Shown here one piece after another: positions 9,949-56,549 of a DNA stretch of 64,000 bases. The stretch spans positions 1 through 64,000 of the forward strand of contig NZ_JAGHRB010000015.1 of assembly GCF_017743995.1 (NCBI RefSeq), read 5' to 3'. The notes below the pieces were generated by a model. That model was not told where the DNA came from and did not search any database. It was given only the letters and a program-made list of their open reading frames with translations. The DNA comes from Ruegeria sp. R13_0 (GTDB lineage: Bacteria > Pseudomonadota > Alphaproteobacteria > Rhodobacterales > Rhodobacteraceae). The first letter of the stretch is position 1, and every line of letters starts with the position of its first letter. The translations under genes and the position numbers were made by a program.

Positions 9949-10860
9949 ATGCCCCATCAGACAGACATCCCCGAGGAAACCGGCGTAACCTCCGCCATCC
10001 TCGACCACCTCGCACTTCATGGCGCAACACCAGGACCCGGCGAGACCGATCATCGCCCCCTGCCCCAGCCTGACGAGGTCGAGCTCGCCATGGCGACACT
10101 TTTCGACACCACTATCGGCCTCCTCACCGGCAGCCAGTTGGAAGACAATCTCGAAGAGATGCTCTGGTCCCTCACCTCGATCTTCCATCGCCGGCTTGCC
10201 CATATCCAGAAGCTTCTCGACGATAACGAATTCGAGGTCCGGGAAAGTTTGGCCATCCAGGACGGTTCCGAGGTCGCTTCGGTTGAACTGGAACGCCTCC
10301 AGTTGATCGGGCTTAAGCTCTGGGACCATCGCGACGCTTTCGAGCAGATGCGCGATCTGGCCGTGGACCACTTCTCGGCCGCCACCGGTTCACCCTGGCT
10401 GCCCCGCACCGGATCCAAGGTCTCGCATCGCGGTCTCACCTCCGCCGTGGTGGACAGCCGGGCCTATCTCTCGGCCAAGCGGCGCAAGGAGACCGAGGTT
10501 CACTGCCCCGAAGGCACGCGGATCGCCTTCTCGGGCGGGGACTATCACGCCTACGACCTGATCTGGTCCGTCCTCGATGCCACCCATGCGAAATACCCAG
10601 ACATGATTCTTTTACACGGCGGCACACCAAAAGGTGCCGAGATGATCGCTGCCCGCTGGGCAGATACCCGTGGTGTCACGCAGGTGGCGTTCAAACCCGA
10701 CTGGAAGAGCCATGGCAAGGCTGCCCCCTTCAAGCGCAACGACAAGATGCTCGAAACCATGCCACAGGGTCTGATTGCCACGCCCGGTTCGGGCATCACC
10801 GAGAACATCGTCGACAAGGCCCGCAAGCTCGGAATCCGCATCAAGAGGATCGGGGCTTAG
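9949..10860 (+). CDS. DUF2493 (SLOG superfamily) protein
   Basis: A 303-residue protein. The N-terminal 190 residues are mainly helical, with no motif I recognise. The C-terminal third is a DUF2493 domain, a branch of the SLOG Rossmann-like superfamily that includes YspA/DprA-like nucleotide-binding proteins: an IAFSGGDYHAYDL strand-loop near residue 196, LLHGGTPKGAE near 222, and FKPDWKSHGKAAPFKRND followed by GSGITENIV. In SLOG proteins the Gly-rich loops bind nucleotide-like ligands; the ligand here is unknown. Such genes are very common on Rhodobacterales plasmids near primase and helicase genes. A structured leader precedes it, and GGGGC-TTAG-GCCCC forms a small hairpin over its stop codon. 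Confidence 0.85.
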   Translation: MPHQTDIPEETGVTSAILDHLALHGATPGPGETDHRPLPQPDEVELAMATLFDTTIGLLTGSQLEDNLEEMLWSLTSIFHRRLAHIQKLLDDNEFEVRESLAIQDGSEVASVELERLQLIGLKLWDHRDAFEQMRDLAVDHFSAATGSPWLPRTGSKVSHRGLTSAVVDSRAYLSAKRRKETEVHCPEGTRIAFSGGDYHAYDLIWSVLDATHAKYPDMILLHGGTPKGAEMIAARWADTRGVTQVAFKPDWKSHGKAAPFKRNDKMLETMPQGLIATPGSGITENIVDKARKLGIRIKRIGA

Positions 10861-12455: not shown

Positions 12456-13010
12456 CCTCGTTTTTATCTCTGGCTCAGGACACTTCCATTGGTCTGAGGA
12501 TAACAGCGACACGCGAAGAATCTCAGAGCCAGGTCTGGCCATTAGTCGGGCACCAGAGCGGATGAGTGTCTGGCAACTCGATGGTATCTGGACGCCTGCA
12601 TCTCCGAATGCGAACGCAAACGCCCCTGTGATGCCACGGAAGGATGGGCGAATGCTCTGCCGTTGCCATCGATTTGTGATCTGACGGCTTTGGTCTTCGA
12701 AGAGTCTTGAAGTTTGGATGGACGAGAAGACAATCCCTACTCCTTGCGGCATCTCTCTCGTCTGTTCCCCTACTTTCCTTCATGGCCACCGCACTTCTCC
12801 CTTTGTCTGAGTTGCATGACATGCTGGTCGCAGCTGTCGTCCCGTCCACAAAGGTTGTCGCCGATCTTTTTCCCCTGACCCTGCGGGTCATTCCGCGCGG
12901 ACCAAAAAGACCGGCGCCTGCCCCTCTCCGCTGCGCTCCGCCTTCGGTGTGGCCGGGCCTTGGCCAGCTGCAAGGTGACCATCATTGCAACGCAAACAAG
13001 GAGAAGAGCA
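12456..13010. other. Gene-free stretch and leader of first DUF736 gene
   Basis: I see no supported gene from 12456 to about 12783. From 12784 onward the sequence is the leader part of the 566-bp direct repeat and contains the structured element (hairpin at 12876-12890) described for copy A at 9799. A good AAGGAG ribosome-binding site lies just before the DUF736 start. Confidence 0.5.
12876..12890 (+). promoter_or_regulatory. Structured leader hairpin, copy B
   Basis: TGACCCTGCGGGTCA forms a 6-bp hairpin, preceded by TTCCCC and followed by TTCCGCGCGG. Compared with copy A (9799-9813), one base pair in the stem is swapped from G-C to C-G, which keeps the pairing. Confidence 0.45.
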
Positions 13011-13349
13011 ATGACCACGAACTGCATCAAATTCACCAGCGCCGACATCGAAACCGCCAAGGGCGTCGGCTCCATCTCGACCCTGACCTTCGACCTCGAC
13101 ATCACGGTCGAACCCGTCGCGAGCTCGAACCCGATGGCCCCCACGCACCGCGTCCTCGGCCGCTCCCCGCGCGGCAAGTTGGTCGAGTGCGGCGGCATCT
13201 GGAAGAAGCAGAACAAGGAGACCGGCGCTGACTACTACACGCTGACCATCCGCGACCACGGCTTCAACGCCAACCTCGGCAAGGCCGCGAACCAGGACGA
13301 TCTGTCCCTGCAGGCCGTCATCCCCTGGGGTCCCAAAGACGCCGCGTGA
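13011..13349 (+). CDS. DUF736 family protein, copy 1
   Basis: A 112-residue protein of the DUF736 family, small proteins encoded on conjugative plasmids and integrative elements of alphaproteobacteria. The sequence predicts mostly beta strands: ISTLTFDLDITVEPV, THRVLGRSP, ECGGIWKKQNKETGADYYTLTI, then NLGKAANQDDLSLQAVIPW. The role is unknown. The ATG at 13011 follows AAGGAG. It differs from the second copy (33400) at only a few residues (for example Val-Gly against Thr-Gly near residue 18 and Ser against Thr near 39). It is followed by a strong hairpin. Confidence 0.9.
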   Translation: MTTNCIKFTSADIETAKGVGSISTLTFDLDITVEPVASSNPMAPTHRVLGRSPRGKLVECGGIWKKQNKETGADYYTLTIRDHGFNANLGKAANQDDLSLQAVIPWGPKDAA

Positions 13350-32919: not shown

Positions 32920-33399
32920 AGCTATTTTGCCTCACTTCTTGTACTTCGGCTTAGTTTGTCTGTGCCCGAAAACGATTTGGTCCAAAATTTCGCTCTTACG
33001 ATACCCCCGGTAGCACTTCTTTGTCACAGCAAGTTTTCGCTGTCGTCGCAAGGTGGGTGCGTCGGGAATCTGGCAAGTGACATGGATCCGAAAATGCCTG
33101 CTCCAGCTATGATCCATGCATCAACATGCGCCCTCTGGCATCTTTGACGGCTGTTCACCATCCTTCCTTAGCGGCCAACGCACTTCTCCCTTTGTCTGAG
33201 TTGCATGACATGCTGGTCGCAGCTGTCGTCCCGTCCACAAAGGTTGCCGCCGATCTTTTTCCCCTGACCCTGCGGGTCATTCCTCGCGGAGCAAAAAGAC
33301 CGGCACCTGCCCCTCTCCGCTACGCTTCGCCTTCGGTGTGCCCGGGCCTTGGCCAGCTGCAAGGTGACCATCATTGCAACGCAAACAAGGAGAAGAGCA
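32920..33399. other. Gap between defence island and second DUF736 copy
   Basis: From 32920 to about 33172 I see no gene; it presumably holds the promoter for the SIR2-herA pair. From 33173 on, the sequence is the leader part of the direct repeat. Confidence 0.5.
33265..33279 (+). promoter_or_regulatory. Structured leader hairpin, copy C
   Basis: TGACCCTGCGGGTCA is followed by TTCCTCGCGGAGCAA. The downstream part resembles copy A (9811-9829) more than copy B does, while the stem is identical to copy B. Confidence 0.45.
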
Positions 33400-33738
33400 A
33401 TGACCACGAACTGCATCAAATTCACCAGCGCCGACATCGAGACCGCCAAGGGCACAGGCTCCATCTCGACCCTGACCTTCGACCTCGACATCACGGTCGA
33501 GCCCGTCGCGAGCACGAACCCGATGGCCCCCACGCACCGCGTCCTCGGCCGCTCCCCGCGCGGCAAGCTGGTCGAGTGCGGCGGCATCTGGAAGAAGCAG
33601 AACAAGGAGACCGGTGCCGACTACTACACGCTGACCATCCGCGACCACGGCTTCAACGCCAACCTCGGCAAGGCCGCGAACCAGGACGATCTGTCCCTGC
33701 AGGCCGTCATCCCCTGGGGCCCGAAAGACGCCGCCTAA
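33400..33738 (+). CDS. DUF736 family protein, copy 2
   Basis: A 112-residue near-duplicate of the protein at 13011, with the same length and the same beta-rich pattern (ISTLTFDLDITVEPV, THRVLGRSP, ECGGIWKKQNKETGADYYTLTI). Substitutions are few and mostly silent or conservative, so both copies are likely functional and either recently duplicated or from two related plasmids that recombined. It has the same AAGGAG ribosome-binding site and structured leader as copy 1 but a different terminator. Confidence 0.9.
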   Translation: MTTNCIKFTSADIETAKGTGSISTLTFDLDITVEPVASTNPMAPTHRVLGRSPRGKLVECGGIWKKQNKETGADYYTLTIRDHGFNANLGKAANQDDLSLQAVIPWGPKDAA

Positions 33739-39900: not shown

Positions 39901-41049
39901 GTGACCAAGATTGACCAGATCGAGACCCTGATCCTCGACATTCCCACCATTCGCGGTCACGTGCTTTCGATGGCCACGATGCGTACGCAAACTGCGGTGC
40001 TGGTCAGGGTCAAGTTCTCGGACGGCTCCGAAGGCATCGGCGAAGGCACGACGATTGGCGGGCTGAGCTACGGACCGGAAAGCCCTGAAGGCATCCAGTC
40101 GGCGATCGAGACTTATATCGCGCCCGGCCTGCTTGGTCGCAACAGCGACGATGTGAATGGTGCAATACAGCTCATCGACAAGTTGGTGAAAGGTAACCGG
40201 ATCGCCAAGACAGCTGTCGAGATAGCTCTGTGGGACGGGCTGGGCAAGCGCTTGGGCGTGCCGGTGTCGCAACTTTTTGGTGGGGCCGTTCACGAACGTC
40301 TACCGGTCGCCTGGACGCTGGCCTCCGGCAATTCCGAGACCGACATCGCCGAAGCCCAGCAGATGATCGAAACCCGCCGCCACAACGTCTTCAAACTGAA
40401 GATCGGCAAGCGAGCGGTCCGTGATGACGTGGCCCATGTCGCCCGCATCAAAGAGGCGGTTGGTGATGCAGCCAGCGTGCGCGTTGACATCAACACGGCT
40501 TGGTCGTTGCAGGATGCACGTTGGGGTCTGAGGGGGCTGCAAGAGGCGGGCTGCGAACTTGTCGAGCAACCTGTCCCCGCGCGTTATCGCCGGGCAATGG
40601 CAGAACTGACGCGTAGCTACGAAATCGCCGTGATGGCTGATGAGGCGCTTAACGGGCCTGAGGATGCTCTCGAAGTGGTAACGGCACAAGCTGCGGACGT
40701 CTTCGCCGTAAAGATCGGGCAATCCGGCGGGCTCAAGCGCGCCTCAGAAGTCATAGCCATTGGGCAGGCTGCGGGCCTTGGCCTTTACGGTGGCACCATG
40801 CTCGAAACCGGCCTGAGCACCGTTGCGGCATTGCAGTTGTTCTCTACCGTTGATGACTTGGCGTGGGGCACCGAGCTGTTCGGCCCGCTGCTGCTGACCG
40901 AGGACATTCTCGCAAATCCGATCGTCTACAGAGATTTCTGCGTCGAAATTCCACACGGCCCGGGCATTGGCGCGACGCTCGACCCCGACAAGATCGATTT
41001 CTTCCGCCGAGATGGTCGGCGGAGCATGAAAGCCGTCGCGGGTGAATAG
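39901..41049 (+). CDS. catB: Muconate cycloisomerase CatB
   Basis: A 382-residue enolase-superfamily enzyme that converts cis,cis-muconate to muconolactone. The N-terminal cap has LDIPTIRGHVLSMATM and GEGTTIGGLSYGPESPEGI (near residue 42), as in well-known CatB proteins. The barrel carries the catalytic KLKIG lysines near 161-163, the metal ligands in VRVDINTAW (near 196), LVEQPV (near 222) and MADEAL (near 246), and VFAVKIGQSGG near 266. GLYGGTMLE and AWGTELFGPLLLTEDI follow. A GTG start is used (39901). It is the first gene of a catB-benABCD-transporter series, 66 bases before benA. The residues expected of a chloromuconate enzyme were not distinguished. Confidence 0.92.
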   Translation: MTKIDQIETLILDIPTIRGHVLSMATMRTQTAVLVRVKFSDGSEGIGEGTTIGGLSYGPESPEGIQSAIETYIAPGLLGRNSDDVNGAIQLIDKLVKGNRIAKTAVEIALWDGLGKRLGVPVSQLFGGAVHERLPVAWTLASGNSETDIAEAQQMIETRRHNVFKLKIGKRAVRDDVAHVARIKEAVGDAASVRVDINTAWSLQDARWGLRGLQEAGCELVEQPVPARYRRAMAELTRSYEIAVMADEALNGPEDALEVVTAQAADVFAVKIGQSGGLKRASEVIAIGQAAGLGLYGGTMLETGLSTVAALQLFSTVDDLAWGTELFGPLLLTEDILANPIVYRDFCVEIPHGPGIGATLDPDKIDFFRRDGRRSMKAVAGE

Positions 41050-41115
41050 TCCCGCGACACGAACAACAAACCAGCCGATGCATCCATGCTGAGGCAGTCT
41101 GGAGGAGGATCACAG

Positions 41116-42504
41116 ATGTTCACCCAATCCAATCTCGACGCATTCGAAGCACGGCTCGACGGCGCCATTCAGGACGACCCGGAAAATGGCGTGTTCCGCT
41201 GCCGCCGAGATATTTTCACCGACGAAGAGCTGTTCGAGCTTGAGATCAAGCACATCTTCGAAGGCAACTGGATTTACATGGCGCATGAAAGCCAGATCCC
41301 GAACCCGGGCGACTACTTTACTCTGACCATGGGCCGCACGCCTGTCGTCATCACCCGCGATAAAGACGGCGAGCTGCACGCGCTGGTCAACGCCTGTTCG
41401 CACCGTGGTGCGCAGCTCTGCCGCTTCAAGCGCCGCAACCAGAAAACCTTCACCTGTCCGTTCCACGGCTGGACATTCTCCAACACTGGCAAGCTCCTGA
41501 AGGTCAAGGATCCCAAGGGTGCAGGTTATCCTGAGCAGTTCAACAAGGACGGCTCCCATGACCTGACTAAAGTTGCCCGCTTCGAAAACTACCGTGGCTT
41601 CCTGTTCGGCTCCCTCAATGCCGATGTGAAGCCGCTGGAGGAGTACCTCGGCGAAGCACGCAAGATGGTCGACATGATCGTCGATCAGGCTGACGAAGGT
41701 CTCGAGGTGCTGCGCGGTTCGTCCACCTACACCTATGACGGCAACTGGAAGCTGCAGGCCGAAAACGGCGCTGACGGTTACCACGTCTCGGCCGTGCACT
41801 GGAACTACGTGGCCACGACGGCGCACCGTACCGATGACGGCAAAGAAGACAACATCAAGGCAACCGACGCGTCCAAATGGGCGAAGCAGCGCGGTGGCTT
41901 CCACGCCTACGAGAATGGTCACATCCTGCTCTGGACGGAATGGGCCGACCCGACCAACCGCCCCGGCTATCCGCGTCTGGAGGAATGGACGGAGAAGTAC
42001 GGCAAGACCAAGGCCGAATGGATGGTGGGAGTGCTGCGCAACCTCTGCCTCTATCCAAACGTCTTCCTGATGGACCAGTTCTCCAGCCAGATCCGCGTCT
42101 TCCGGCCCGTCTCGGTCGACAAGACCGAGGTCACGATCTACTGCATCGCGCCGAAGGGCGAGAGCCAGGAAGCACGCACCCGACGCATCCGCCAGTACGA
42201 GGACTTCTTCAATGCCTCTGGCATGGCGACGCCGGATGATACCGAAGAATTCCGGGCCACACAGCGCGGCTATGCCGGTGCGGCACACGCCAAGTGGAAC
42301 GACCTGACCCGCGGAGCAACCCAATGGATCGAAGGTCCCGATGAAGACGCCAAGGCCCTTGGCATCAACCCGGTTATGTCCGGTGCGCGCACTGAGGACG
42401 AAGGGCTCTTCGTCATCCAGCACAGCAACTGGTCCGAGCGGATGGGAGACGCCATCGCCAAGGAACGCGAAACCGCGCCTCAGGCGTCGGTCGCAGCCGA
42501 GTGA
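41116..42504 (+). CDS. benA: Benzoate 1,2-dioxygenase large subunit BenA
   Basis: A 462-residue alpha subunit of a Rieske dioxygenase that oxidises benzoate to its cis-diol carboxylate. The Rieske [2Fe-2S] ligands are C94-x-H96 (CSHRG) and C114-x2-H117 (CPFHGW). The mononuclear iron site is D220-G-Y-H223-x4-H228, with the downstream Asp presumably further on. The first residues and the [15 protein letters not shown] block are close to BenA/XylX rather than to ring-hydroxylating enzymes of larger substrates, but XylX-type toluates cannot be excluded. GGAGGAGGAT lies before the ATG at 41116. benB follows after 12 bases. Confidence 0.93.
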
Positions 42505-42516
42505 GGAGGAAAGAAC

Positions 42517-43041
42517 ATGACAACTGCGACTCTTGAACGCCCTGCAACCGATGTGATGAGCTTCGAAGACATCCAGGCCTTTCTCTTCGCGGAGGCCCGC
42601 GCTCTGGACGATCGCGACTGGGACACCTGGCTGACATTCTACCACAAGGACTGTCCGTTCTGGATGCCCGCATGGGATGACTTCGACACGCTGACGGAGG
42701 ATCCGCAGAACGAGATGTCCTTGATGTACTACCCCAACAAGCAGGGCATCGAGGACCGCGTATTCCGGATCAAGACCGACCGGTCGTCGGCGACCTCGCT
42801 GCCGGAGCCGCGCACGAACCACTATCTGTCGGGTATCGAAGTGCTGAGCCGCGAAGGTAGCGAAATCAAGCTGCGCTTCAACTGGCAAACGCTGAGCTAC
42901 CGCTACGCCGAGACCGATACCCACTGGGGCACGTCGTTCTACTCGATCGACACCAGCGGGCCGAAGCCGCTGATCACCGATAAGAAGGTCGTCCTGAAGA
43001 ACGATCACATCCACCACGTGATCGACGTCTATCACACCTGA
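42517..43041 (+). CDS. benB: Benzoate 1,2-dioxygenase small subunit BenB
   Basis: A 174-residue beta subunit, of the usual length for BenB/XylY. It has the SnoaL/NTF2-like fold pattern: EDIQAFLFAEARALDDRDWDTWL at residues 14-36, FYHKDCPFWMPAWDDFDTLTEDP, the MSLMYYPNKQGIEDRVFRIKTDRSSAT block and HYLSGIEVL. It has no catalytic site and stabilises the hexamer with BenA. GGAGGAAAG precedes the ATG, and the gap to benA is 12 bases. A hairpin lies between benB and benC. Confidence 0.93.
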   Translation: MTTATLERPATDVMSFEDIQAFLFAEARALDDRDWDTWLTFYHKDCPFWMPAWDDFDTLTEDPQNEMSLMYYPNKQGIEDRVFRIKTDRSSATSLPEPRTNHYLSGIEVLSREGSEIKLRFNWQTLSYRYAETDTHWGTSFYSIDTSGPKPLITDKKVVLKNDHIHHVIDVYHT

Positions 43042-43070
43042 TCCCCGTTACTCCGGGAGCCTGAAGACCT

Positions 43071-43096
43071 CCGCGCATCTACGTCTGGGTGCGCGG
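43071..43096 (+). promoter_or_regulatory. Intercistronic hairpin between benB and benC
   Basis: A perfect 7-bp stem (CCGCGCA with TGCGCGG) and a 12-nt loop lie just before the benC ribosome-binding site. There is no T-tract, so it more likely affects mRNA stability or translation of the reductase than termination. Confidence 0.4.
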
Positions 43097-43114
43097 ATAA
43101 GGGAGGAGCATGCC

Positions 43115-44137
43115 ATGACGACCTACAACGTTGCCCTGAATTTCGAAGATGGCGTCACACGCGTCATCCAGTGCGATGACGACGAGAAGGTAACCGATGC
43201 GGCCTTCCGTCAGAAGATCAACTTGCCGATGGACTGCCGCGATGGCGTCTGCGGCACCTGCAAGTGCTTTGTCGAGAAGGGCGAGTACGAGCTGGAATTC
43301 TACATGGACGAGTCGATGAGCGACGAGGAGGCCGAAGAAGGCTACGCGCTCACCTGCCAGATGACCCCAGAAAGCGACTGCGTTGTGCGGGTTCCGGCCT
43401 CATCCGCCATCTGCAAGACCGCGCCCGAGGCAGTGGAAGCCGAAGTGCAGGGCGTTGACAAACTTTCCGAGACATCCTTCGGTCTGCGGGTGAATCTGGC
43501 CAAGCCAATCAACTTCCTGCCGGGCCAGTATGTGAACCTGACAGTCCCCGGTACGGACAAACACCGGTCCTATTCCTTTTCGTCCGCACCGGGTGCGCAG
43601 GAAGCAACATTCCTGATCCGCAACCTGCCCGGCGGTGTCATGAGCACCTATCTTGGCGAGCAGGCGAAGCCCGGCGACGCTCTGACTGCAACCGGTCCGA
43701 TGGGTGCCTTTTACCTGCGGCCAATCGAGCGCACGCAGGTTTGGCTCGCCGGTGGCACCGGTCTGGCGCCGTTCCTCTCCATGCTGGAACAAGTGGCTGA
43801 GCAGGGAGCAGAGCACCCGATCACGCTCTACTATGCCGTGACGCGCGCCGCTGACCTCGTGGAACTGGATCGCGTTAGCGCGCTTGCTGAAAAGATCGGC
43901 AACGTCACCGTGATCACCATTCTGGCCGCCGAAGAAGACGCGCATGAGCGCAAGGGGTTCGTGACCGATCACCTCAGCGGCGATGACCTGTCGGGCGGCG
44001 ATTGCGACGTCTACCTGTGCGGCCCGCCGCCTATGGTCGATGCCGTGCGCGCGCATTTCGGGAAACTGGGCGTCGAGCCCACGAATTTCTACTACGAGAA
44101 ATTCAACCCCACCGAAGAGAAGGCCGAAGCGGCATGA
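43115..44137 (+). CDS. benC: Benzoate 1,2-dioxygenase reductase BenC
   Basis: A 340-residue NADH-dependent electron-transfer protein for BenAB. The N-terminal plant-type [2Fe-2S] ferredoxin has ligands C41, C46, C49 (in MDCRDGVCGTCKCF) and C81. The FAD-binding part has RSYSFSSAP near 151 and GGVMSTYL near 172, and the NAD-binding part GGTGLAPFLSML near 212 and YLCGPPPMVDAV near 300. The order of domains (ferredoxin first) is that of BenC/XylZ. It overlaps benD by ATGA, so the diol dehydrogenase is co-translated. Confidence 0.93.
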   Translation: MTTYNVALNFEDGVTRVIQCDDDEKVTDAAFRQKINLPMDCRDGVCGTCKCFVEKGEYELEFYMDESMSDEEAEEGYALTCQMTPESDCVVRVPASSAICKTAPEAVEAEVQGVDKLSETSFGLRVNLAKPINFLPGQYVNLTVPGTDKHRSYSFSSAPGAQEATFLIRNLPGGVMSTYLGEQAKPGDALTATGPMGAFYLRPIERTQVWLAGGTGLAPFLSMLEQVAEQGAEHPITLYYAVTRAADLVELDRVSALAEKIGNVTVITILAAEEDAHERKGFVTDHLSGDDLSGGDCDVYLCGPPPMVDAVRAHFGKLGVEPTNFYYEKFNPTEEKAEAA

Positions 44138-44913
44138 CAGGCCGTTTCGACAACAAGGTGATGGTCGTCACCGGCGCGGCACAAGGTATCGGCCGCCGCG
44201 TCGCCGAACGAGCGGCAAGCGAAGGCGCACGGGTTCTGATCGTGGACCGCTCGCCCGCACGCAAAGACGTCGTCGCGGCGATCCGCGAAGCGGGGGGCGA
44301 GGTCGAGGCGATCTCGGTTAACCTCGAGACGTGGAGTGGCTGCGACAAGGCCATCGGCAAGGCCGTGGATCTCTGGGGCCGCATCGACATCCTGATCAAC
44401 AACGTCGGTGGCACGATCTGGGCCAAACCGTTTGAGCATTACGAGCCCAAGCAGATCGACGCAGAAGTGCGCCGTTCGCTGTTCCCGACACTCTACTGCT
44501 GCCGCGCCGCCATTGAACGGATGCTACCGCAAGGTAAGGGCACCATCGTCAATGTGTCTTCCATTGCGACCCGCGGACTGAACCGCGTGCCCTACGCAGC
44601 AGCGAAGGGCGGCGTGAACGCGCTCACGGCTAGCCTGTCTTGGGAAGTTGCCGAACGCGGGATCCGCGTCGTTGCAACCGCACCGGGCGGAACCGAAGCC
44701 CCGCCGCGGGTCGTACCGCGCAACCCCAATGCCGAAGAAGAACAACGCGAAGACTGGTACCAGACCATCGTCGACCAGACGATCCAGTCCTCGTTCATGA
44801 AAAGATATGGAACGCTCGACGAGCAGGCAGGTCCCATCCTGTTTCTGGCGTCGGACGAAGCCTCATACATCACCGGTGTCACAGTCCCGGTGGGTGGGGG
44901 CGACTTAGGCTAG
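44134..44913 (+). CDS. benD: Benzoate cis-diol dehydrogenase BenD
   Basis: A 259-residue short-chain dehydrogenase that oxidises and decarboxylates the benzoate diol to catechol with NAD. The cofactor motif is TGAAQGIG (13-20), NNVGG lies near 90, and the catalytic Ser (in NVSSIA near 142), Tyr154 and Lys158 (in YAAAKGG) are all present. The SDR pattern NRVPYAAAKGGVNALTASLSWE and GGTEAPPRVVPRN is like BenD/XylL. The ATG at 44134 overlaps benC. A GGAGGAG ribosome-binding site for the next gene (the binding protein) lies 40 bases downstream, so the ABC importer genes are likely in the same operon. Confidence 0.92.
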   Translation: MTGRFDNKVMVVTGAAQGIGRRVAERAASEGARVLIVDRSPARKDVVAAIREAGGEVEAISVNLETWSGCDKAIGKAVDLWGRIDILINNVGGTIWAKPFEHYEPKQIDAEVRRSLFPTLYCCRAAIERMLPQGKGTIVNVSSIATRGLNRVPYAAAKGGVNALTASLSWEVAERGIRVVATAPGGTEAPPRVVPRNPNAEEEQREDWYQTIVDQTIQSSFMKRYGTLDEQAGPILFLASDEASYITGVTVPVGGGDLG

Positions 44914-49529: not shown

Positions 49530-50432
49530 TCACCCCTTTTTGACAGGGCTCTTTCGCGCGACTTTCTGCGCGATGTTAACGAAATTCTTGACGTGAACGC
49601 CCTGTTCATCGAGGCGGTAATTGACCGAGAGTTCAGTTCGCGCGATCTCGGGTTCGATATTGAGAAACTTCATACCCTTGCGCGGCGCATTGGCGACGGA
49701 TTCTGGGACAATGCACACGCCTTCACCGACCGCAACAAGACTGAGGGCGGTTTGCAGATCCATACACCAGATGCGCAGGGGCGCCTCGAATCCCGCATCC
49801 TCAACCGCCTTGAGAACCATGTCGGCATAGCTGGGCCTGGGGCGTTCGGGATAGAGGATCAAATGGTGGGTCATCAGCCGTTCGAGCTTGGCCACTGTCC
49901 GAGTTCCCGTATCGACGATGTCAGGTAAGGCGAGGATCAGCTTTTCTTCAACCAAATGCTTTGACAGGAACTCGGGATCCTTCAGGGTTGGGCGCGCAAA
50001 TACAACGTCCAGTTCCCGTGACACCAGGGACCGGTGCAGTTCGGCGTTGTTCATCGGGATCAGACTTAGGTTCACGTCCGGGTAATTCGCCCGATACGAT
50101 CTGATGATGTTTGGCAGAATTCCGTATGTGGCAGAGCCGACGAACCCAATCCTGAGTCGTCCTTCCGCCCCTTGTCCCAGCCGACGCACTTCCAGTTGCG
50201 TGTCTTCAAGCTCTGCGAGGATTGTCTTGCCGCGCTTCAGCAACCGCTCACCTGCTTGTGTCAGGGTGATCGTGCTCCGGCCCCTGTTGAACAGGATTGC
50301 GCCGAGGTCTTCCTCGAGCTGCTTGATCTGACGGCTGAGCGGGGGTTGCGCCATATCGAGGCGTTCTGCGGCGCGCCCGAAATGCAGCTCCTCTGCCACT
50401 GCAATGAAATAGGTCAGCTGTTTGAAATTCAT
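49530..50432 (-). CDS. LysR-type transcriptional regulator of the cat/ben genes
   Basis: A 300-residue LysR regulator. The N-terminal winged helix-turn-helix (residues 1-60, MNFKQLTYFIAVAEELHFG and AAERLDMAQPPLSRQIKQLE) has the LHFGRAAERL pattern of the CatR/CatM/BenM/CatR-like subgroup. The ligand-binding domain (90-300) has RIGFVGSATYGILPNIIRSYR. By family it would respond to cis,cis-muconate or benzoate and control catA and the ben genes; this is inferred from position. It is transcribed in the same direction as catA, separated from it by a strong terminator, so it probably has its own promoter in 50433-50478. Confidence 0.87.
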   Translation of the reverse strand: MNFKQLTYFIAVAEELHFGRAAERLDMAQPPLSRQIKQLEEDLGAILFNRGRSTITLTQAGERLLKRGKTILAELEDTQLEVRRLGQGAEGRLRIGFVGSATYGILPNIIRSYRANYPDVNLSLIPMNNAELHRSLVSRELDVVFARPTLKDPEFLSKHLVEEKLILALPDIVDTGTRTVAKLERLMTHHLILYPERPRPSYADMVLKAVEDAGFEAPLRIWCMDLQTALSLVAVGEGVCIVPESVANAPRKGMKFLNIEPEIARTELSVNYRLDEQGVHVKNFVNIAQKVARKSPVKKG

Positions 50433-50532: not shown

Positions 50533-51408
50533 TTACTCGGCGGCGGTCGCCTTTCCGTTGGCGGCCGTCTTGAGGACGAAATCGAACTCGAAGTGCAGGT
50601 CGGTGCCCAGGTCGGCGGCAGCCGGTTTGAACTTGCCGATCAGGCTTTCCTTGACCGCAAAGACGCTGTCCTCTTCGAGCCATGCGCTGTCGGCGTCGTA
50701 GATTTGGCTGATCAGCGGACGGTAGCCATCCTTCGAGATGATGAAGTGCATGTGGCCCGGGCGGTTCGGGTGGTGGCCCATGAAGCGCAGCAGCTCACCG
50801 GCGGTTTCATCGTCCGGGATCGGGTAGGGGACGGGGCGCACGGCGACAAAAGCGTAATGGCCGTTTTCATCGGTCTCGAACCGTCCGCGCAGGTTGTATT
50901 CGGGCTGGTCGGGGTCGAGATTTTCGTAGACGCCGTTCGGCGCGTCTTCCCAGACGTCGAGCGTCACACCGGCGATGCCGTTGCCGTTTTCATCCTTGAT
51001 GTAGCCCTCGAAGTACGCGGTTTCTTCGTTGTCAAAGTGCTTCTGGATTGTCGAACCGCCCTTGGGCAGAACCGGCGGGTTCTCGCGGTAGAACGGGCCC
51101 AGAACGGTGGATTCGCTTTCGTTGCCTTCGACGGGATTGGTCATCATGTCGACCAGAACCTCGACGCCAAGGATGTCGCCCAGAAGGATGAACTCCTGCC
51201 GGTTGTCATTGCAGAGCTTACCAGCGCGGGCGAGGTAGTCGCAGACGAACAGGAATTCGTTATGCTGCAGTTTCACGTCCTTGATGAATGCGTGCAGGTG
51301 TTTGACCAGGCCAGTCGCGAGTTCGCGCTGGCGGTCGGTGATGTCTCCATGCTTACCGAGGCTCGCGATCACGACGTCGGTGATGTTGTGTTGGTTGACG
51401 ATGCCCAT
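50533..51408 (-). CDS. catA: Catechol 1,2-dioxygenase CatA
   Basis: A 291-residue intradiol dioxygenase that splits catechol to cis,cis-muconate. The N-terminal helical dimerisation domain (1-100) is present. The iron ligands are Y161 (NGVYENLDPDQPEYNLRGRF), Y195 (RPVPYPIP), H219 and H221 (RPGHMHF), in the standard order. ESTVLGPFYREN at about 100-111 is the usual entry to the catalytic domain. Hydroxyquinol 1,2-dioxygenases look similar, but the benABCD/catB context favours catechol. ATG 51408 is preceded by GAGGAGGAAC. It is divergent from the SCP2-like gene, sharing a 265-base regulatory gap. Confidence 0.9.
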   Translation of the reverse strand: MGIVNQHNITDVVIASLGKHGDITDRQRELATGLVKHLHAFIKDVKLQHNEFLFVCDYLARAGKLCNDNRQEFILLGDILGVEVLVDMMTNPVEGNESESTVLGPFYRENPPVLPKGGSTIQKHFDNEETAYFEGYIKDENGNGIAGVTLDVWEDAPNGVYENLDPDQPEYNLRGRFETDENGHYAFVAVRPVPYPIPDDETAGELLRFMGHHPNRPGHMHFIISKDGYRPLISQIYDADSAWLEEDSVFAVKESLIGKFKPAAADLGTDLHFEFDFVLKTAANGKATAAE

Positions 51409-51673: not shown

Positions 51674-52054
51674 GTGATCGACACCTTCACGCACATACAA
51701 ACACGCCTTGAGGTAACGCCGCATTTGCTGCGCCTCGGCCGGCTGTTTTCCGAAACCGTGCTCATCGAGGTGGGCGGTGACGAATTTTACCTGACTTTCG
51801 ACAAGGGGCACATCGTATCGGTCGTAGAGGGCCCAAGCCGCAAGACGCCTTGGCGCTTTGCATTGCGGACCGACTCCGAGGCTCTTACCAAATTCTGGCA
51901 AGCGCGCCCCGAACCCGGCTTCCATGACATCTTTGGACTGGTGAAGATCGGTCGCGGTCGGGTCGATGGCGACATTCTGAACCTCGTCAAAAACCTGCGC
52001 TTCTTCAAGGAAGTGCTGACTCTCGCCCGTGCAAAAGAGGAGTTGGTAGCATGA
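51674..52054 (+). CDS. SCP2-like small protein
   Basis: A 126-residue protein resembling SCP2 sterol-carrier-like domains: VLIEVGGDEFYLTFDKGHIVSVVEGPSR in the first half and ALRTDSEALTKFWQARPEPGFHDIFGLVKIGRGRVDGDILNLVKNLRFFKEVL in pattern in the second. Such proteins bind hydrophobic ligands. No catalytic motif is evident. GTG 51674 is chosen because GGGAGG is 5 bases upstream; an in-frame ATG at 51611 lies inside the operator dyad. The alpha/beta hydrolase overlaps its end by ATGA. Its place as the first gene of the lower-pathway operon, where catC would be expected, suggests a pathway role. Confidence 0.6.
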   Translation: MIDTFTHIQTRLEVTPHLLRLGRLFSETVLIEVGGDEFYLTFDKGHIVSVVEGPSRKTPWRFALRTDSEALTKFWQARPEPGFHDIFGLVKIGRGRVDGDILNLVKNLRFFKEVLTLARAKEELVA

Positions 52055-52908
52055 GCATCGAACCGATCACCGGTCGCTATGTAACTGCCACCATGAGCGG
52101 TGCCCCGCGCCGTATCTATTTCGAAGAGGCGGGGCAAGGGCGTCCGGTCATCTGCCTGCACACCGCAGGCGCCGATACCCGCCAGTGGCGTCACCTGATG
52201 AATGACGCCGAGATCACCGCATCGTACCGCCTGATCGCCTTCGACATGCCGTGGCACGGCAAATCGCTGCCGCCAGAAGGCTTCGAGACACAGGAATACC
52301 TCCTGACGACAGAAGCCTACATCGAAACCGTTCTGGCCGTCGTCGACTGTCTGGGCCTTGATCGCCCAGTCCTTGCTGGCTGCTCGATGGGCGGGCGCAT
52401 TGCCCTCCAAATCGCGGCGCTTCACCCGGAAAAATTTAGCGGCTTCATTGCGATCGAAGCGTCGGATTTTCAGCCTGCCTGGTACGACATCGACTGGTTC
52501 CACAGACCCGATGCCCATGGCGGCGAGATGGGTGCTGCTCTCGTATCCGCCAACATCTCACCCTTTGCGCCCAACTCCGAACGCTGGAACACGCTTTGGA
52601 TGTTCATGCAAAGCGGTCCGGGCGTTTTCCGCGGCGATCTGAGCTTTTACACCAAGGATGACAGCCTGATCCCGCGCTTGCCAACGATCGATACTGCAAA
52701 GACGCCGGTGCACATCATCGTAGGCGCCTATGATTTGACCTGCACGCCCGAGGATGCCGAGCGAACCGCCAACGCCATTCCTGGCGCCACTTTGGCCGTC
52801 ATGGATGAACTGGGCCACTTTCCGATGAGCGAACACCCTGAGGGCTTCCGCCCGTTCTTCGTGGACGCACTGGAAAAGATGCCAAGCCCGGCGGCGAAAA
52901 CTACCTGA
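52051..52908 (+). CDS. Alpha/beta hydrolase, possible lactone hydrolase of the lower pathway
   Basis: A 285-residue alpha/beta hydrolase. The oxyanion region is LHTAGADTRQW near 36-46, the nucleophile elbow GCSMGG with Ser112, the acid is probably the Asp in VGAYDLTCTPED near 230, and the catalytic His is in ELGHFPMSEHP near 257. Substrate is not certain. In this operon it may hydrolyse the beta-ketoadipate enol-lactone (the PcaD step) or muconolactone directly. PcaD proteins are usually shorter (about 260) and have a different C-terminal half, so I do not assign pcaD. It overlaps the SCP2-like gene by ATGA. Confidence 0.8.
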   Translation: MSIEPITGRYVTATMSGAPRRIYFEEAGQGRPVICLHTAGADTRQWRHLMNDAEITASYRLIAFDMPWHGKSLPPEGFETQEYLLTTEAYIETVLAVVDCLGLDRPVLAGCSMGGRIALQIAALHPEKFSGFIAIEASDFQPAWYDIDWFHRPDAHGGEMGAALVSANISPFAPNSERWNTLWMFMQSGPGVFRGDLSFYTKDDSLIPRLPTIDTAKTPVHIIVGAYDLTCTPEDAERTANAIPGATLAVMDELGHFPMSEHPEGFRPFFVDALEKMPSPAAKTT

Positions 52909-52937
52909 CCGATAACCCCTGCGCAGGAGGAGGAGTC

Positions 52938-53144
52938 ATGTGCACGAACGCGAAAACCCCGTGTCCCGGATGCAAGAAACATGAAAAAGCCGACGCAGAC
53001 TGGATGTTCTTCACCGATGACGAGCGAAAGGCCACCGAGGCATTGCGCAAGCGTCCGGCACTTTTCGACCGTTCCTTTCTGAAACCTGAACCCGCACATG
53101 CTGGCACCCGTCCGGTCGCATCCAACGGAGAAGTACACCCATGA
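52938..53144 (+). CDS. Small Cys-containing protein, 68 aa
   Basis: A 68-residue protein with three Cys in its first 12 residues (MCTNAKTPCPGCKKHEKADAD), which could bind zinc or a cluster; the rest is charged and helical, with a Pro-rich tail. I recognise no family. It has an excellent AGGAGGAGGAG ribosome-binding site and overlaps the BKACE gene by ATGA, so it is almost surely translated and coupled. It may be a small partner of the BKACE. Confidence 0.7.
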   Translation: MCTNAKTPCPGCKKHEKADADWMFFTDDERKATEALRKRPALFDRSFLKPEPAHAGTRPVASNGEVHP

Positions 53145-54001
53145 CCAATCCCTGCATTATCTGTGTGGCGATCACGGGCAGCCTGCCCACAAAAGCCAAC
53201 AATCCGGCTGTCCCGATCAGTGTGTCGGAACAAGTAGATTCCACACACGAGGCTTTTGAGGCCGGGGCCACCATCGTGCACGCCCATGTGCGCAACGATG
53301 ATGAATCTCCGTCTTCAGACCCTGAGAAGTTCGCCGCGCTGAAAGAAGGGATCGAGAAACACTGCCCCGGCATGATCATCCAGTTCTCGACCGGAGGGCG
53401 ATCAGGCGCGGGTCAGACGCGTGGCGGGATGTTGCCGCTTTCGCCCGACATGGCCTCGCTGTCCGTCGGATCGAACAATTTCCCGACACGTGTTTACGAA
53501 AACCCGCCTGATCTGGTGGACTGGCTGGCCAGCGAAATGCTGACCTACAGCGTCAAACCGGAGATCGAAGCCTTCGACCTGAGCCATATCCTGAAAGCCA
53601 AGGACATGGCTGACAAAGGTCAGCTTGTGGGCACGCCTTACATCCAGTTCGTGATGGGCGTGAAAAACGCGATGCCGGTCGATCGTGATGTGTTCGACTA
53701 CTACATCCACACCGTGCGCCGCCTCTTCGGTGAAGACGCTCCATGGTGCGCCGCGGGCATTGGTGCCAACCAGCTCAAACTGAACGAATGGGCTATCGCT
53801 GCGGGGGGTCATGCCCGCACCGGTCTGGAAGACAACGTTCGACTTGATCGCGACACGCTCGCTCCCAGCAACGCAGCCTTGGTGCGCCGGGCTGTTGAGA
53901 TTTGTGAAAGAAACGATCGCTCGGTGGCAACGTGGCAAGAGGCGCGCCGCATTCTTGGACTGCGCTTGTCTGCGAATGCCTCAAAAGGACGCGCATCATG
54001 A
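53141..54001 (+). CDS. Beta-keto acid cleavage enzyme (BKACE, Kce family)
   Basis: A 286-residue (beta/alpha)8 zinc enzyme of the 3-keto-5-aminohexanoate cleavage (DUF849) family. Zinc ligands H47 and H49 lie in VHAHVRN. The catalytic block R226-x3-E230-D231 (ARTGLEDN) matches the numbering of the characterised Kce enzyme, as I remember it. The family condenses a beta-keto acid with acetyl-CoA to give acetoacetate and a shortened acyl-CoA. With beta-ketoadipate the products would be succinyl-CoA and acetoacetate. The real substrate is inferred from the operon: it is coupled by ATGA to the small protein before it and to scoA after it. Confidence 0.88.
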   Translation: MTNPCIICVAITGSLPTKANNPAVPISVSEQVDSTHEAFEAGATIVHAHVRNDDESPSSDPEKFAALKEGIEKHCPGMIIQFSTGGRSGAGQTRGGMLPLSPDMASLSVGSNNFPTRVYENPPDLVDWLASEMLTYSVKPEIEAFDLSHILKAKDMADKGQLVGTPYIQFVMGVKNAMPVDRDVFDYYIHTVRRLFGEDAPWCAAGIGANQLKLNEWAIAAGGHARTGLEDNVRLDRDTLAPSNAALVRRAVEICERNDRSVATWQEARRILGLRLSANASKGRAS

Positions 54002-54726
54002 ACAAGGTATACAAAACAGCCGCCGAGGCTCTGGATGGCCTCCTGCATGACGGGATGTTGGTCGCGGCCGGAGGCTTTGGCCTCTGTGGCATTCCGGAAC
54101 TTTTGATCGACGCCATTATGGCAAGCGGCGTGAAGGACCTGACCGTCGCTTCGAACAATGCGGGCGTCGATGACTTCGGCCTCGGCAAGCTCTTGGCCAC
54201 CCGCCAGATCAAGAAGATGATGTCGTCCTACGTCGGCGAGAATGCCGAGTTCATGCGCCAGTATCTGAGCGGAGAACTGGAGCTGGAATTTAACCCGCAA
54301 GGCACGTTGGCCGAGCGCATGCGCGCTGGCGGGGCAGGCATCCCCGGATTCTACACCCAGACAGGTGTTGGCACCCAGATCGCCGAAGGCAAGGAAGTCA
54401 AAGAGTTCAACGGCAAAGAGTACATCCTCGAAGAGGGCATTTTTGCCGACCTGTCGATCGTCAAGGCGTGGAAAGCCGATGACACAGGCAACCTGATTTT
54501 CCGGAAGACCGCGCGCAACTTCAATCCGCCCGCCGCCATGTGCGGCAAGGTCTGCGTAGCCGAGGTCGAGGAAATCGTGCCGCGCGGTTCGATCAACCCC
54601 GACCATATCCATCTGCCGGGGATCTACGTGCACCGCCTGATACAGGGCGAACACGAAAAGCGGATTGAACAGCGCACAACGCGAGCGCGGTCCGAAGGGG
54701 CAACACGCAAGCGGGAGGAAGCATAA
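53998..54726 (+). CDS. scoA: 3-oxoacid (acetoacetate) CoA-transferase subunit A, ScoA-like
   Basis: A 242-residue alpha subunit. The motifs LVAAGGFGLCGIPELLI, SNNAGVDDFGLGKLL, QIKKMMSSYVGENAEF and RAGGAGIPGFYTQTGVGT and the stretch LEEGIFADLSIVKAWKAD are those of succinyl-CoA:acetoacetate CoA-transferases (ScoA/SCOT), and differ from PcaI, where the corresponding stretches differ strongly. It activates acetoacetate with succinyl-CoA. It starts inside the BKACE stop (ATGA) and its own stop overlaps the scoB start by one base, so the three are coupled. A role as beta-ketoadipate transferase is not excluded. Confidence 0.87.
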   Translation: MNKVYKTAAEALDGLLHDGMLVAAGGFGLCGIPELLIDAIMASGVKDLTVASNNAGVDDFGLGKLLATRQIKKMMSSYVGENAEFMRQYLSGELELEFNPQGTLAERMRAGGAGIPGFYTQTGVGTQIAEGKEVKEFNGKEYILEEGIFADLSIVKAWKADDTGNLIFRKTARNFNPPAAMCGKVCVAEVEEIVPRGSINPDHIHLPGIYVHRLIQGEHEKRIEQRTTRARSEGATRKREEA

Positions 54727-55349
54727 TGCCCTGGGATCGCAACCGGATGGCGGCACGTGCCGCACAGGAACTCGAAGACGGCATGTATGTGAACCTCGGG
54801 ATCGGCATCCCGACGCTTGTCGCCAACTACGTCGGCGACAAGGATATCACGCTGCAGTCGGAAAACGGCATGCTCGGCATGGGTCCGTTCCCGTTCGAGG
54901 GCGAAGAGGACCCGGACCTGATCAATGCCGGCAAGCAGACGATCACCGAGCTGAACCGAACCTCGTACTTCGACAGCGCCATGTCCTTCGGAATGATCCG
55001 CGGCGGCAAGATCGCCGCGGCAGTCTTGGGTGCAATGGAAGTTTCCGAGAAGGGTGACCTCGCAAACTGGATGATCCCGAGAAAGCTCGTGAAGGGTATG
55101 GGCGGTGCGATGGACCTCGTTGCCGGTGTTGGCCGTGTTGTGGTGGTGATGGATCACACCAACAAGCATGGTGACAGCAAGCTCTTGAAGGAGTGTACGT
55201 TGCCGTTGACTGGCAAAGGCGTGGTCGACAGGATCATCACCAACCTCGGTGTTCTGGACGTGACCCACAAGGGCCTGCACATCGTCGAATGCGCCGATGC
55301 TGTCTCCCGCGACGATATCATCAAGGCGACCGAGGCAACGATTGTCTGA
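54726..55349 (+). CDS. scoB: 3-oxoacid (acetoacetate) CoA-transferase subunit B, ScoB-like
   Basis: A 207-residue beta subunit. The catalytic glutamate is E46 in SENGMLGMGP, the standard motif. VNLGIGIPTLVANYV near 21, FDSAMSFGMIRGGKI near 82 and the LANWMIPRKLVKGMGGAMDLVAGV segment near 111-134 are typical of ScoB/AtoA-type proteins. Together with ScoA it makes a heterotetramer. A Rho-independent terminator follows 37 bases after its stop codon, which closes the lower-pathway operon. Confidence 0.87.
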   Translation: MPWDRNRMAARAAQELEDGMYVNLGIGIPTLVANYVGDKDITLQSENGMLGMGPFPFEGEEDPDLINAGKQTITELNRTSYFDSAMSFGMIRGGKIAAAVLGAMEVSEKGDLANWMIPRKLVKGMGGAMDLVAGVGRVVVVMDHTNKHGDSKLLKECTLPLTGKGVVDRIITNLGVLDVTHKGLHIVECADAVSRDDIIKATEATIV

Positions 55350-55424: not shown

Positions 55425-56549
55425 GTGTCCTACGCCGGTCCGCTTCTGATCTATCTGAGCGCTGCGGAATCGGTGGGCACCTCGAAGGAGGGTTTTTCGT
55501 CCTGGGTCTTCGCAATTTCCGTGGCAGCTGGGCTGTCGAGCATCGGGCTCAGCCTGTGGTTCCGTGTTCCGGTCGCGATGGCATGGTCGGCCCCTGGCAC
55601 GGTCCTTCTGATTTCTCTCGGGACATCCTTGTCACCCGCCGAGATGGTCGGTGCCTATGTCGCTGTGGCAGCGATTCTGGTGCTCATCGGCTTTTCCGGC
55701 GTCTTCGAACGGCTTGTACAACTCCTCCCGCCTTCGGTGACCAATGGAATGATGGCTGGCATACTCTTCGGATTCGGCCTAAAGGCCGCCGGAGGATTGG
55801 CAACTGATCCTGCCGCAATTGCGCTGCTGATCGTCGTCTTCGCCGTCTGCGCGATGCTCTTTCCCCGTTATTCCATGCTTGTCCTGCTGGCCTCGGCACT
55901 GTTGATCAGCGCCGTCTTCTACGATGCATCGGTTGGAACCGTGGGCGTGGTTTTCGCGTCCCTCGAAGTCAGCGGACCGGTCTTTTCAATGGGGGCCATG
56001 CTGAGCCTGGCATTGCCTTTGCTCATCACAACACTGAGCGGACAATACCTTCCGGGGATGGCGATCCTAAGGGCCAATGGCTTCCGGATTTCGGCAAATC
56101 CGATCCTCATTGTTGGCGGCCTTGTCTCTGTCTTGGCCGCGCTCTTGGGCGGAATAACAACCGCTCTGGCCTCGATCACCGCAGCCTTCTGTGCGGGATC
56201 GGATAGCCATGAAGACCCCGACCGCCGTTATGTCGCCGGCATCGCCTGTGGCGTTTTCTTCTGCCTTGGCGGCGTTTTCGCCGGGACCATCGTTGAAGTA
56301 CTGGTGCTTTTGCCGACGGCGCTTATTGCCCTGCTGGCTGGTCTCGCGCTCTTACAACCTATCCTGAAATTCACCGGTGCGATGCTTGCGTCTGAAGATG
56401 CTCAGGCGGGGCTGCTGACGTTCCTGTTCACGGCATCTGGTGTGACCCTGTTCGGAATCGGTTCGGCCTTCTGGGGGGTGGTTATTGGGATCGCCGTCCA
56501 CTTTCTAGGCAGGTCCGCCGAGTTGTTTTCGGGCAAAACACACACCTGA
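55425..56549 (+). CDS. benE: BenE-family benzoate/proton symporter
   Basis: A 374-residue integral membrane protein of the BenE family, with about 11 hydrophobic segments. Typical patches are SSWVFAISVAAGLSSIGLSL, VAMAWSAPGTVLL near 48, NGMMAGILFGFGLKAAGG, and later ALASITAAFCAGSDSHEDP with RRYVAGIACGVFF. It would import benzoate with protons, alongside the ABC importer. The GTG at 55425 is the first usable start, but the same frame upstream (from 55383) still codes for BenE-like sequence (AIGAGFLAVLVSYAG) with no ATG/GTG/TTG. An ATG at 55379 is one base out of frame, so a start frameshift or odd start codon is possible. Confidence 0.82.
   Translation: MSYAGPLLIYLSAAESVGTSKEGFSSWVFAISVAAGLSSIGLSLWFRVPVAMAWSAPGTVLLISLGTSLSPAEMVGAYVAVAAILVLIGFSGVFERLVQLLPPSVTNGMMAGILFGFGLKAAGGLATDPAAIALLIVVFAVCAMLFPRYSMLVLLASALLISAVFYDASVGTVGVVFASLEVSGPVFSMGAMLSLALPLLITTLSGQYLPGMAILRANGFRISANPILIVGGLVSVLAALLGGITTALASITAAFCAGSDSHEDPDRRYVAGIACGVFFCLGGVFAGTIVEVLVLLPTALIALLAGLALLQPILKFTGAMLASEDAQAGLLTFLFTASGVTLFGIGSAFWGVVIGIAVHFLGRSAELFSGKTHT

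Follow-up and report, generated by a model that had tools for sequence, protein, structure and literature searches.

A candidate SCP2-fold protein and hydrolase pair in the place of CatC in a Ruegeria benzoate operon that ends in BKACE and ScoAB

How is muconolactone carried to beta-ketoadipate, and beta-ketoadipate to central metabolites, in a benzoate operon without catC? The beta-ketoadipate pathway, a standard example in textbooks, also serves as a chassis in lignin and muconate engineering, and the canonical catechol-branch set comprises catA, catB, catC, pcaD, pcaIJ and pcaF. The question is raised by a 64,000-nucleotide stretch of Ruegeria sp. R13_0 (the window; positions 1 to 64,000 of NZ_JAGHRB010000015.1, our contig C6): catC is absent, and PcaD and a pcaF-type thiolase are encoded elsewhere in the genome. 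Taking an SCP2-hydrolase gene pair and a BKACE/ScoAB end jointly as the explanation, we consider it probable that the genes form a benzoate/catechol operon of the ortho-cleavage type, with two deviations from the textbook pathway.

On the forward strand, catB (muconate cycloisomerase; 39901-41049; TIGR02534 505 bits, cut-off 335) is followed by benA, benB, benC and benD (41086-44913; about 41119-42504, 42517-43041, 43115-44137 and 44134-44913), with Rieske/ring-hydroxylase, ferredoxin-reductase and SDR domains in benA, benC and benD; the four are 83-92% identical, with order kept, to the benABCD genes annotated on the Sulfitobacter D7 plasmid p5SUD7. The reverse strand carries a LysR-type regulator gene (49530-50432), which adjoins catA in most related loci and whose D7 counterpart is annotated as LysR family, and a catA-like intradiol dioxygenase gene (50533-51408), the product of which scores over the PF00775 and PF04444 cut-offs and below every NCBIfam equivalog cut-off. 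Between catA and the BKACE gene, again on the forward strand, sit the GTG-started gene of a 126-aa protein of predicted SCP2 fold (51674-52054), with which the operon begins, and an alpha/beta hydrolase gene (52051-52908; PF00561 75.9 bits), the two overlapping by 4 nt. A 68-aa DUF1289-like ORF (52938-53144; PF06945 E 0.005, below cut-off; present in 14 of 80 loci) and the genes for BKACE (53141-54001), ScoA (53998-54726), ScoB (54726-55349) and the benzoate/H+ symporter BenE (55425-56549; TIGR00843 315.1 bits, cut-off 203.4) complete the forward-strand series. The first-pass annotation had described the hydrolase, BKACE and transferase genes as coupled start to stop, which is true of BKACE and scoA (4-nt overlap) and of scoA and scoB (1 nt), but the DUF1289-like ORF parts the hydrolase gene from the BKACE gene and rules out their direct coupling.

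No match to CatC (PF02426) was found in the Ruegeria genome even at E 10, an absence that the first-pass annotation had overlooked. It is unlikely that this model misses CatC widely, since it scored over cut-off in 16 of 292 genomes sampled from the order (two further matches under cut-off were not counted) and in 2 of 14 control genomes. The 126-aa protein has no Pfam or NCBIfam match. Its AlphaFold model (pLDDT 81.8, pTM 0.69) gave 25 Foldseek matches at E <=0.001, led by 1wfr (E 3.7e-6) and followed by UbiJ and other SCP2 proteins, and the predicted fold places it in the SCP2 superfamily. The SCP2 model PF02036 itself did not match the Ruegeria protein, and matched its relatives weakly if at all (2 of 13 aligned members, best E 0.0092; 1 of 8 further proteins, at 15.1 against 21.3 bits). 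A distant CatC was rejected as the identity of this protein, given the lack of a PF02426 match, a best PDB sequence match of E 0.62 and the SCP2 fold. It would share with CatC a position in the pathway, between CatB and beta-ketoadipate, while differing from it in fold and sequence.

The hydrolase likewise resembles PcaD, the 3-oxoadipate enol-lactonase, in its family, its conserved Ser, Asp and His and its presumed place in the pathway, but it scored 75.3 bits with the PcaD model (TIGR02427; cut-off 255.85), and none of the loci checked had its gene without an SCP2-like partner. Its triad would consist of Ser112, Asp228 and His256, which are unchanged in all 12 relatives of alignment A4. The structural model was too poor (pLDDT 64.2, residues 140-202 below 50) for Foldseek to show more than an alpha/beta hydrolase. 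A PcaD probe found nothing in 17 fetched pair clusters, an absence that holds for the stretch searched because these clusters span 13-19 kb and some lie at contig ends; a PcaD-like gene was present in 7 of 10 genomes with both CatC and catB.

The distribution of the pair was then compared with that of CatC in one draw of 292 genomes from the order, 32 of which had catB over cut-off. Eighteen of these 32 carry the pair, 10 carry CatC, 4 carry neither and none carries both; the four with neither imply that other solutions exist. A strong SCP2 protein (at least 175 bits) was found in 18 of the 292 genomes, all of them among the 32 with catB (three weak matches of 38.7-45 bits, in G175, G206 and G286, were left out), and 10 of the 16 CatC genomes likewise fall among the 32. 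No PF02426 match appeared in any pair genome at E 0.01. The hypergeometric probability of this exclusion is 1.6e-5 with relatedness ignored; corrected for relatedness, the data reduce to four independent pairs, in which CatC went the opposite way in one or two and the same way never, with p at least 0.5. A class-wide survey of 357 genomes held only three with catB over cut-off, the two others having CatC beside catB, so the order-wide exclusion could not be replicated at that level.

The hydrolase gene directly follows the SCP2 gene in all 18 pair genomes, and at least one of catA and catB shares a stretch with the pair in each of the 18 (in G019, catB is about 2.2 Mb away). In distant loci the two genes were neighbours in all 21 that were checked, once as a single fused ORF. 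The CatB proteins associated with the pair form two separate groups. Beyond these genomes, the family reaches a haloarchaeon, and distant SCP2-family members were found in a further 27 genomes of the class, all of which lack catB over cut-off and 18 of which were inspected at one place each. Three of these 27 (G312, G336 and G443) also carry a PF02426 protein over cut-off, indicating that the small-protein family does more than the muconolactone step.

A gap at CatC has been reported for Sulfitobacter D7, a strain able to grow with benzoate as its only source of carbon; in the accessible text of the report, every catechol-branch gene but CatC was found, a PcaD is named and no enzyme is given for the CatC step (PMC9873259). 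The accessible text of another paper presents the ordinary case (PMC12062540). In our searches D7 carries the pair and has no PF02426 match. Its plasmid, identical over 18,969 bp to one of our loci (L167), shares with Ruegeria the arrangement catB-benABCD-transporter-lysR-catA-SCP2-hydrolase, whereas it has no BKACE or ScoAB gene after the hydrolase gene and carries a pcaF-type thiolase gene on the same plasmid. With PcaD over cut-off on contig C2 in Ruegeria and a PcaD named for D7, the hydrolase may share the lactonase role with other enzymes.

On the basis of this genomic context, which reflects few independent origins, we infer that the pair carries muconolactone to beta-ketoadipate. CatA and CatB would make muconolactone; the SCP2-fold protein, by itself or tightly bound to the hydrolase, would shift the double bond, and the hydrolase would open the enol-lactone, the two together replacing CatC and PcaD. 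The full form of this proposal, in which the pair is an undescribed two-part enzyme and a non-orthologous replacement with a catalytic SCP2 fold, and the wider family a general lactone-processing module, has in our judgement about an even chance of being right. We know of no catalytic job of such a kind for an SCP2-fold protein, of no SCP2-fold isomerase and of no assay of either protein.

A tentative alternative, clearly less likely, is that a bifunctional hydrolase performs both the muconolactone isomerase and the lactonase step by itself, the SCP2 protein being only its chaperone or binding partner. The adjacency in the distant loci, with its one fusion, fits this reading too; the hydrolase is the better conserved across distant relatives (columns of A4 average 66% identity, those of the SCP2 alignment A2 53%); and the Foldseek matches include UbiJ-type SCP2 proteins, which are accessory proteins. 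Against this, conservation is also high in the cat-type SCP2 protein, where 24 sequences agree fully at 56 of 126 columns, a weak point as the sequences are close relatives.

It is unlikely that an unrelated isomerase encoded elsewhere, or slow spontaneous isomerisation, supplies the CatC activity instead, with the pair performing the PcaD step or another job. The PcaD on contig C2 shows that pathway genes can be scattered, and five of six distant plasmid pairs adjoin tricarballylate or succinate-semialdehyde dehydrogenase genes, so that a more general role as a lactone hydrolase is conceivable. However, besides the constant linkage to catA or catB and the lack of PF02426 matches in the 18 pair genomes, plasmids of Rhizobium jaguaris, R. 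hidalgonense and Shinella have the order catA-catB-SCP2-hydrolase-lysR, in which only the pair stands between catB and the regulator.

With beta-ketoadipate formed by the pair as proposed, the next step would fall to BKACE. Positions 53141-54001 are a real ORF whose product is a member of this family (Pfam BKACE 306.8 bits; best PDB sequence match 3FA5, E 1.4e-156), and His47, His49, Arg226, Glu230 and Asp231, which we take to have zinc and catalytic roles, are all intact, as the first-pass annotation had stated. Its suggested action on beta-ketoadipate is backed by family membership, as the protein passes the equivalog cut-off for 3-oxoadipate:acetyl-CoA acetyltransferase (NF053568, 496.2 bits, cut-off 350), the activity that Bastard et al. 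in 2014 reportedly described for BKACE. The public annotation name, the lysine-fermentation enzyme Kce, was rejected (NF052387, 242 bits against a cut-off of 382). Five BKACE genes are present in the Ruegeria genome.

The two subunits that follow, both full-length, score over the cut-offs for 3-oxoacid CoA-transferase subunits A and B (ScoA, TIGR02429 245.1 bits, cut-off 128.5; ScoB, TIGR02428 312.4 bits, cut-off 243.55). They resemble the housekeeping enzyme, and their identity to the second ScoA and ScoB of the genome, on contig C2, is 81.5% and 87.0%; in a tree, ScoA groups with its C2 counterpart, and one supported branch (99/95) parts it from all six PcaF-adjacent transferases. The sequences therefore support the earlier reading of an acetoacetate-type ScoAB rather than PcaIJ. 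The genes do not lie beside pcaF, the nearest pcaF-type thiolase being about 22 kb away, and no PcaI-type transferase was found, because the one further protein of the genome over the TIGR02429 cut-off likewise belongs to the ScoA type.

In the pathway's last part, BKACE would convert beta-ketoadipate and acetyl-CoA into succinyl-CoA and acetoacetate, ScoAB would move CoA from succinyl-CoA onto acetoacetate, and a housekeeping thiolase would then split acetoacetyl-CoA. The net reaction would be beta-ketoadipate + CoA -> succinate + acetyl-CoA, the same as with PcaIJ-PcaF, and an acetoacetyl-CoA thiolase would still be needed. The reported lack of a thiolase holds for the window, where no TIGR02430 match was found at E 0.001, but not for the genome: a pcaF-type thiolase is encoded at C6:77272-78462, 13 kb past the window end (669 bits, curated cut-off 597), in a cluster with ETF-like (by eye), flavin-monooxygenase-, GMC- and aldehyde-dehydrogenase-like genes.

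That the notable part of the locus is this BKACE/ScoAB end is doubtful. The family assignments, the tree, the absence of a PcaI-type transferase over cut-off and the recurrence of BKACE with ScoAB beside pca genes (Donghicola L071 and L085; the Phaeobacter inhibens plasmid match H49) speak for the end itself, as does the way BKACE and pcaF complement each other among the 18 pair genomes: the four without pcaF over cut-off all have BKACE in the fetched cluster, and the three without BKACE there all have pcaF. However, pcaF is over cut-off in 14 of the 18, Ruegeria included, 11 of which also have BKACE in the cluster. In G107, counted as lacking pcaF, a thiolase relative (43% identical) lies in the locus. 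ScoAB, moreover, is optional: of 22 informative loci, 14 have it after BKACE and 8 lack it. Two loci with too little sequence beyond BKACE were excluded from this count, and five short ones with a visible scoA were kept, which favours scoA (9 of 17 without short loci on both sides). Four of the 56 BKACE loci without the pair were read gene by gene. Nor is a BKACE-ended route new: a curated NCBIfam equivalog exists, and Methylobacterium pca operons with a DUF849/BKACE gene in place of pcaIJF, proposed there as its substitute, are described in the accessible text of two papers (PMC8963497, PMC12379598). Ruegeria differs from these known systems in that its BKACE stands in the catechol branch with ScoAB after it.

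Finally, it is very improbable that ScoAB acts as PcaIJ on beta-ketoadipate, with the C6:77272-78462 thiolase finishing and BKACE running in parallel: ScoAB is the only TIGR02429 transferase found on its contig, which also holds that thiolase, and one PcaF-adjacent transferase (G565) lies near the ScoA side of the tree and is 62% identical to ScoA, but the other five are only 40-43% identical, far below the C2 copy, and the thiolase belongs to a different, cyclic-ketone-like cluster.

The BKACE/ScoAB end is thus part of the best explanation; the BKACE reaction was already known, and the SCP2-hydrolase pair is the more surprising part. The pair, carried by 18 of 32 genomes with catB in the sample of 292, is a candidate for the CatC gap reported in a benzoate-growing Roseobacter, and its occurrence cautions against annotating such pathways as incomplete. 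If the proposal is true, it would give an unnamed two-gene family, met in bacteria and in an archaeon, its first function.

The operon lies in the first 64 kb of contig C6 (96.9 kb; genome 4.68 Mb in 56 contigs), with all its genes on the forward strand. The first is a 126-aa ORF starting at a GTG at 51674, followed by an alpha/beta hydrolase (52051-52908), a DUF1289-like ORF of 68 aa (52938-53144), BKACE (53141-54001), scoA (53998-54726), scoB (54726-55349) and finally benE (55425-56549). Neighbouring genes overlap by 4 nt at three junctions (126-aa ORF/hydrolase, 68-aa ORF/BKACE and BKACE/scoA) and by 1 nt at a fourth (scoA/scoB). A catA-like dioxygenase gene and a LysR gene lie divergently upstream of the 126-aa ORF, and benABCD and catB are located farther upstream; the ben names were assigned by synteny with Sulfitobacter D7. 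The D7 plasmid p5SUD7 (81,709 bp), which is contig C6 of survey genome G193 (identical over 18,969 bp), shares the first two genes with the window and has them annotated as a hypothetical protein and an alpha/beta hydrolase, and the accessible text of the D7 paper (PMC9873259) names PcaD, PcaIJ and PcaF. According to that paper, D7 can use benzoate as its sole carbon source, and every gene of the catechol branch was located but CatC. Within Ruegeria, BKACE was 100% identical over 286 aa on a contig of strain THAF57 (L015), and the best place on the THAF33 plasmid NZ_CP045388.1 covered 81% of the operon query at 100% nucleotide identity. Relatives of the 68-aa ORF were found in 14 of 80 loci, and it sits between the hydrolase and BKACE in all six clusters showing it. 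Elsewhere in the window, two 129-aa ORFs about 20 kb apart (12960-13349 and 33349-33738) have nearly identical starts.

BKACE scored 496.2 bits against NF053568, the NCBIfam model for 3-oxoadipate:acetyl-CoA acetyltransferase (curated cut-off, 350), and retains His47, His49, Glu143, Arg226, Glu230 and Asp231. Its score against the model for Kce of lysine fermentation (242; cut-off, 382) was too low for that assignment. The closest solved structures, 3FA5 and 3CHV, were both deposited as DUF849 of unknown function. An Arg follows the STGG motif, and our guess is that it binds the far carboxylate. The use of a BKACE at the end of the beta-ketoadipate pathway is already published: the available portions of three papers report pca clusters of Methylobacterium in which DUF849 is present and pcaIJF absent (PMC8963497, citing Bastard et al. 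2014), growth of M. extorquens PA1 on protocatechuate and vanillate after joint transfer of pcaHGBL and kce from M. nodulans (PMC12379598), and beta-ketoadipate among the substrates of BKACE family groups (PMC4922564). The genome also encodes a second BKACE, 81% identical to that of the window (contig C54; L099 8004-9708), directly after another catechol-dioxygenase-like gene and a ring-hydroxylase-like gene; these genes probably form a further aromatic route ending in beta-ketoadipate.

A second ScoAB pair of the genome, on contig C2, shares 81.5% identity with the window ScoA and 87.0% with ScoB. When 28 ScoA-like proteins were placed in a tree, all six PcaF-adjacent ones were set apart from the rest by a single branch (99/95); of these six, five were distant from the window ScoA (40-43% identity), and the sixth, from G565, was 62% identical and close to the ScoA side. 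Among 22 informative loci, 14 had scoA after the cat-type BKACE (two more loci were too short); the count was 9 of 17 when short loci were dropped on both sides. BKACE and scoAB also occur together in pca-type clusters of Donghicola (L071, L085) and Phaeobacter inhibens; L071, read gene by gene, has a PcaC above the cut-off and a best match to PcaB below it, and pcaD and pcaG are annotated in the P. inhibens cluster. This repetition at cat and pca-type loci makes the coupling of BKACE to ScoAB, as read in the first-pass annotation, plausible and recurrent. By arithmetic, the net equation of BKACE, ScoAB and acetoacetyl-CoA thiolase is that of PcaIJ and PcaF. The end route proposed in that annotation is probably correct, but for the most part known already.

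The pcaF model found no match in the window, but a thiolase at C6:77272-78462, past the window end on the same contig, scored above the pcaF cut-off. It belongs to a cluster (L095 5984-19090, or C6:69783-82889) with genes for ETF-like subunits, a Baeyer-Villiger-like flavin monooxygenase (both labels assigned by eye), GMC and aldehyde dehydrogenases and an alpha/beta hydrolase, and these neighbours suggest that the cluster degrades a cyclic ketone via an adipate-like acid. Of the 18 surveyed genomes bearing the pair formed by the 126-aa protein and the hydrolase, 14 have pcaF above the cut-off. The four that lack it (G081, G107, G122 and G265) each have in their fetched cluster a BKACE of 72-91% identity, joined in G107 by a 43%-identical thiolase relative; the three without BKACE in the fetched cluster (G193, G245 and G247) have pcaF, and the remaining 11 have both. 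BKACE and PcaF therefore look interchangeable.

Even with the threshold relaxed to E 10, the CatC model PF02426 matched nothing in this genome. In one draw of 292 genomes of the order (completeness at least 90%), catB was above the cut-off in 32, CatC in 16 and a strong cat-type protein of the 126-aa family, which has a predicted SCP2 fold (at least 175 bits), in 18, all with catB. CatC occurred in 10 of the 32 catB genomes, none of which combined it with the strong SCP2 protein, and in six more genomes without catB above the cut-off. With kinship ignored, the hypergeometric probability of this zero overlap is 1.6e-5; corrected for kinship, only four independent pairs remain, with CatC running opposite in one or two and the same way in none (p at least 0.5). 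In the CatB tree, which carries long-branch warnings, pair-bearing proteins fell into two separate groups, and the supported branches require at least four label changes, some via rows with neither.

Four catB genomes (G034, G087, G254 and G260) had neither CatC nor the SCP2 protein. Glutathione transferases include cis-trans isomerases, so the glutathione-transferase-like gene directly after catB in G087 and G254 (L189 9313-9948, by Pfam; L190 about 9303-9960, by likeness) may be a third solution to the missing CatC step. The single-contig genome G260 has a benABCD-catB set close to that of the window (L191, C1:2516000-2535000); the pair and CatC were not found in this genome, nor catA in that stretch, possibly a remnant or partial pathway.

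The hydrolase lay directly 3' of the SCP2 gene in all 18 pair-bearing genomes, with BKACE within the stretch in 15; the G223 stretch was without catA and that of G019 without catB. A PcaD probe found no match in 17 fetched pair-bearing stretches, and TIGR02427 gave nothing above the cut-off on C6, whereas 7 of the 10 genomes with CatC and catB had a PcaD-like gene. Thioclava, inside the order, has SCP2-hydrolase-catB, the last annotated as muconate cycloisomerase. Outside it, plasmids of Rhizobium jaguaris, R. hidalgonense and Shinella carry catA-catB-SCP2-hydrolase-lysR, near PcaIJ- and PcaF-like genes in Shinella. Plasmid hydrolases of Xanthobacter dioxanivorans and Ancylobacter (L110, L199) were 82% and, over the aligned part, 81% identical to that of the window; no cat genes were found in these stretches, and the pair, adjoining monooxygenase-, alcohol-dehydrogenase- and ferredoxin-like genes, may act on a different lactone in these two hosts.

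By tblastn, the small protein was found on 33 plasmids, reaching Rhodococcus, Peribacillus and the haloarchaeon Natrinema. An alpha/beta hydrolase followed it immediately at six of six distant plasmid loci (Agrobacterium, Martelella, Peribacillus, Natrinema, Rhodococcus and Palleronia), five of which adjoin tcuAB or succinate-semialdehyde dehydrogenase genes, and at 21 of 21 further distant loci; in G376 (L206) the two are a single ORF. The Pfam SCP2 model did not match the small protein; its predicted model has an SCP2 fold (pLDDT 81.8) with Foldseek matches to 1wfr, UbiJ and 2cx7. Ser112, Asp228 and His256 of the hydrolase were invariant in 12 aligned members. The middle of the pathway, which lacks CatC, is the new and testable point of this locus.
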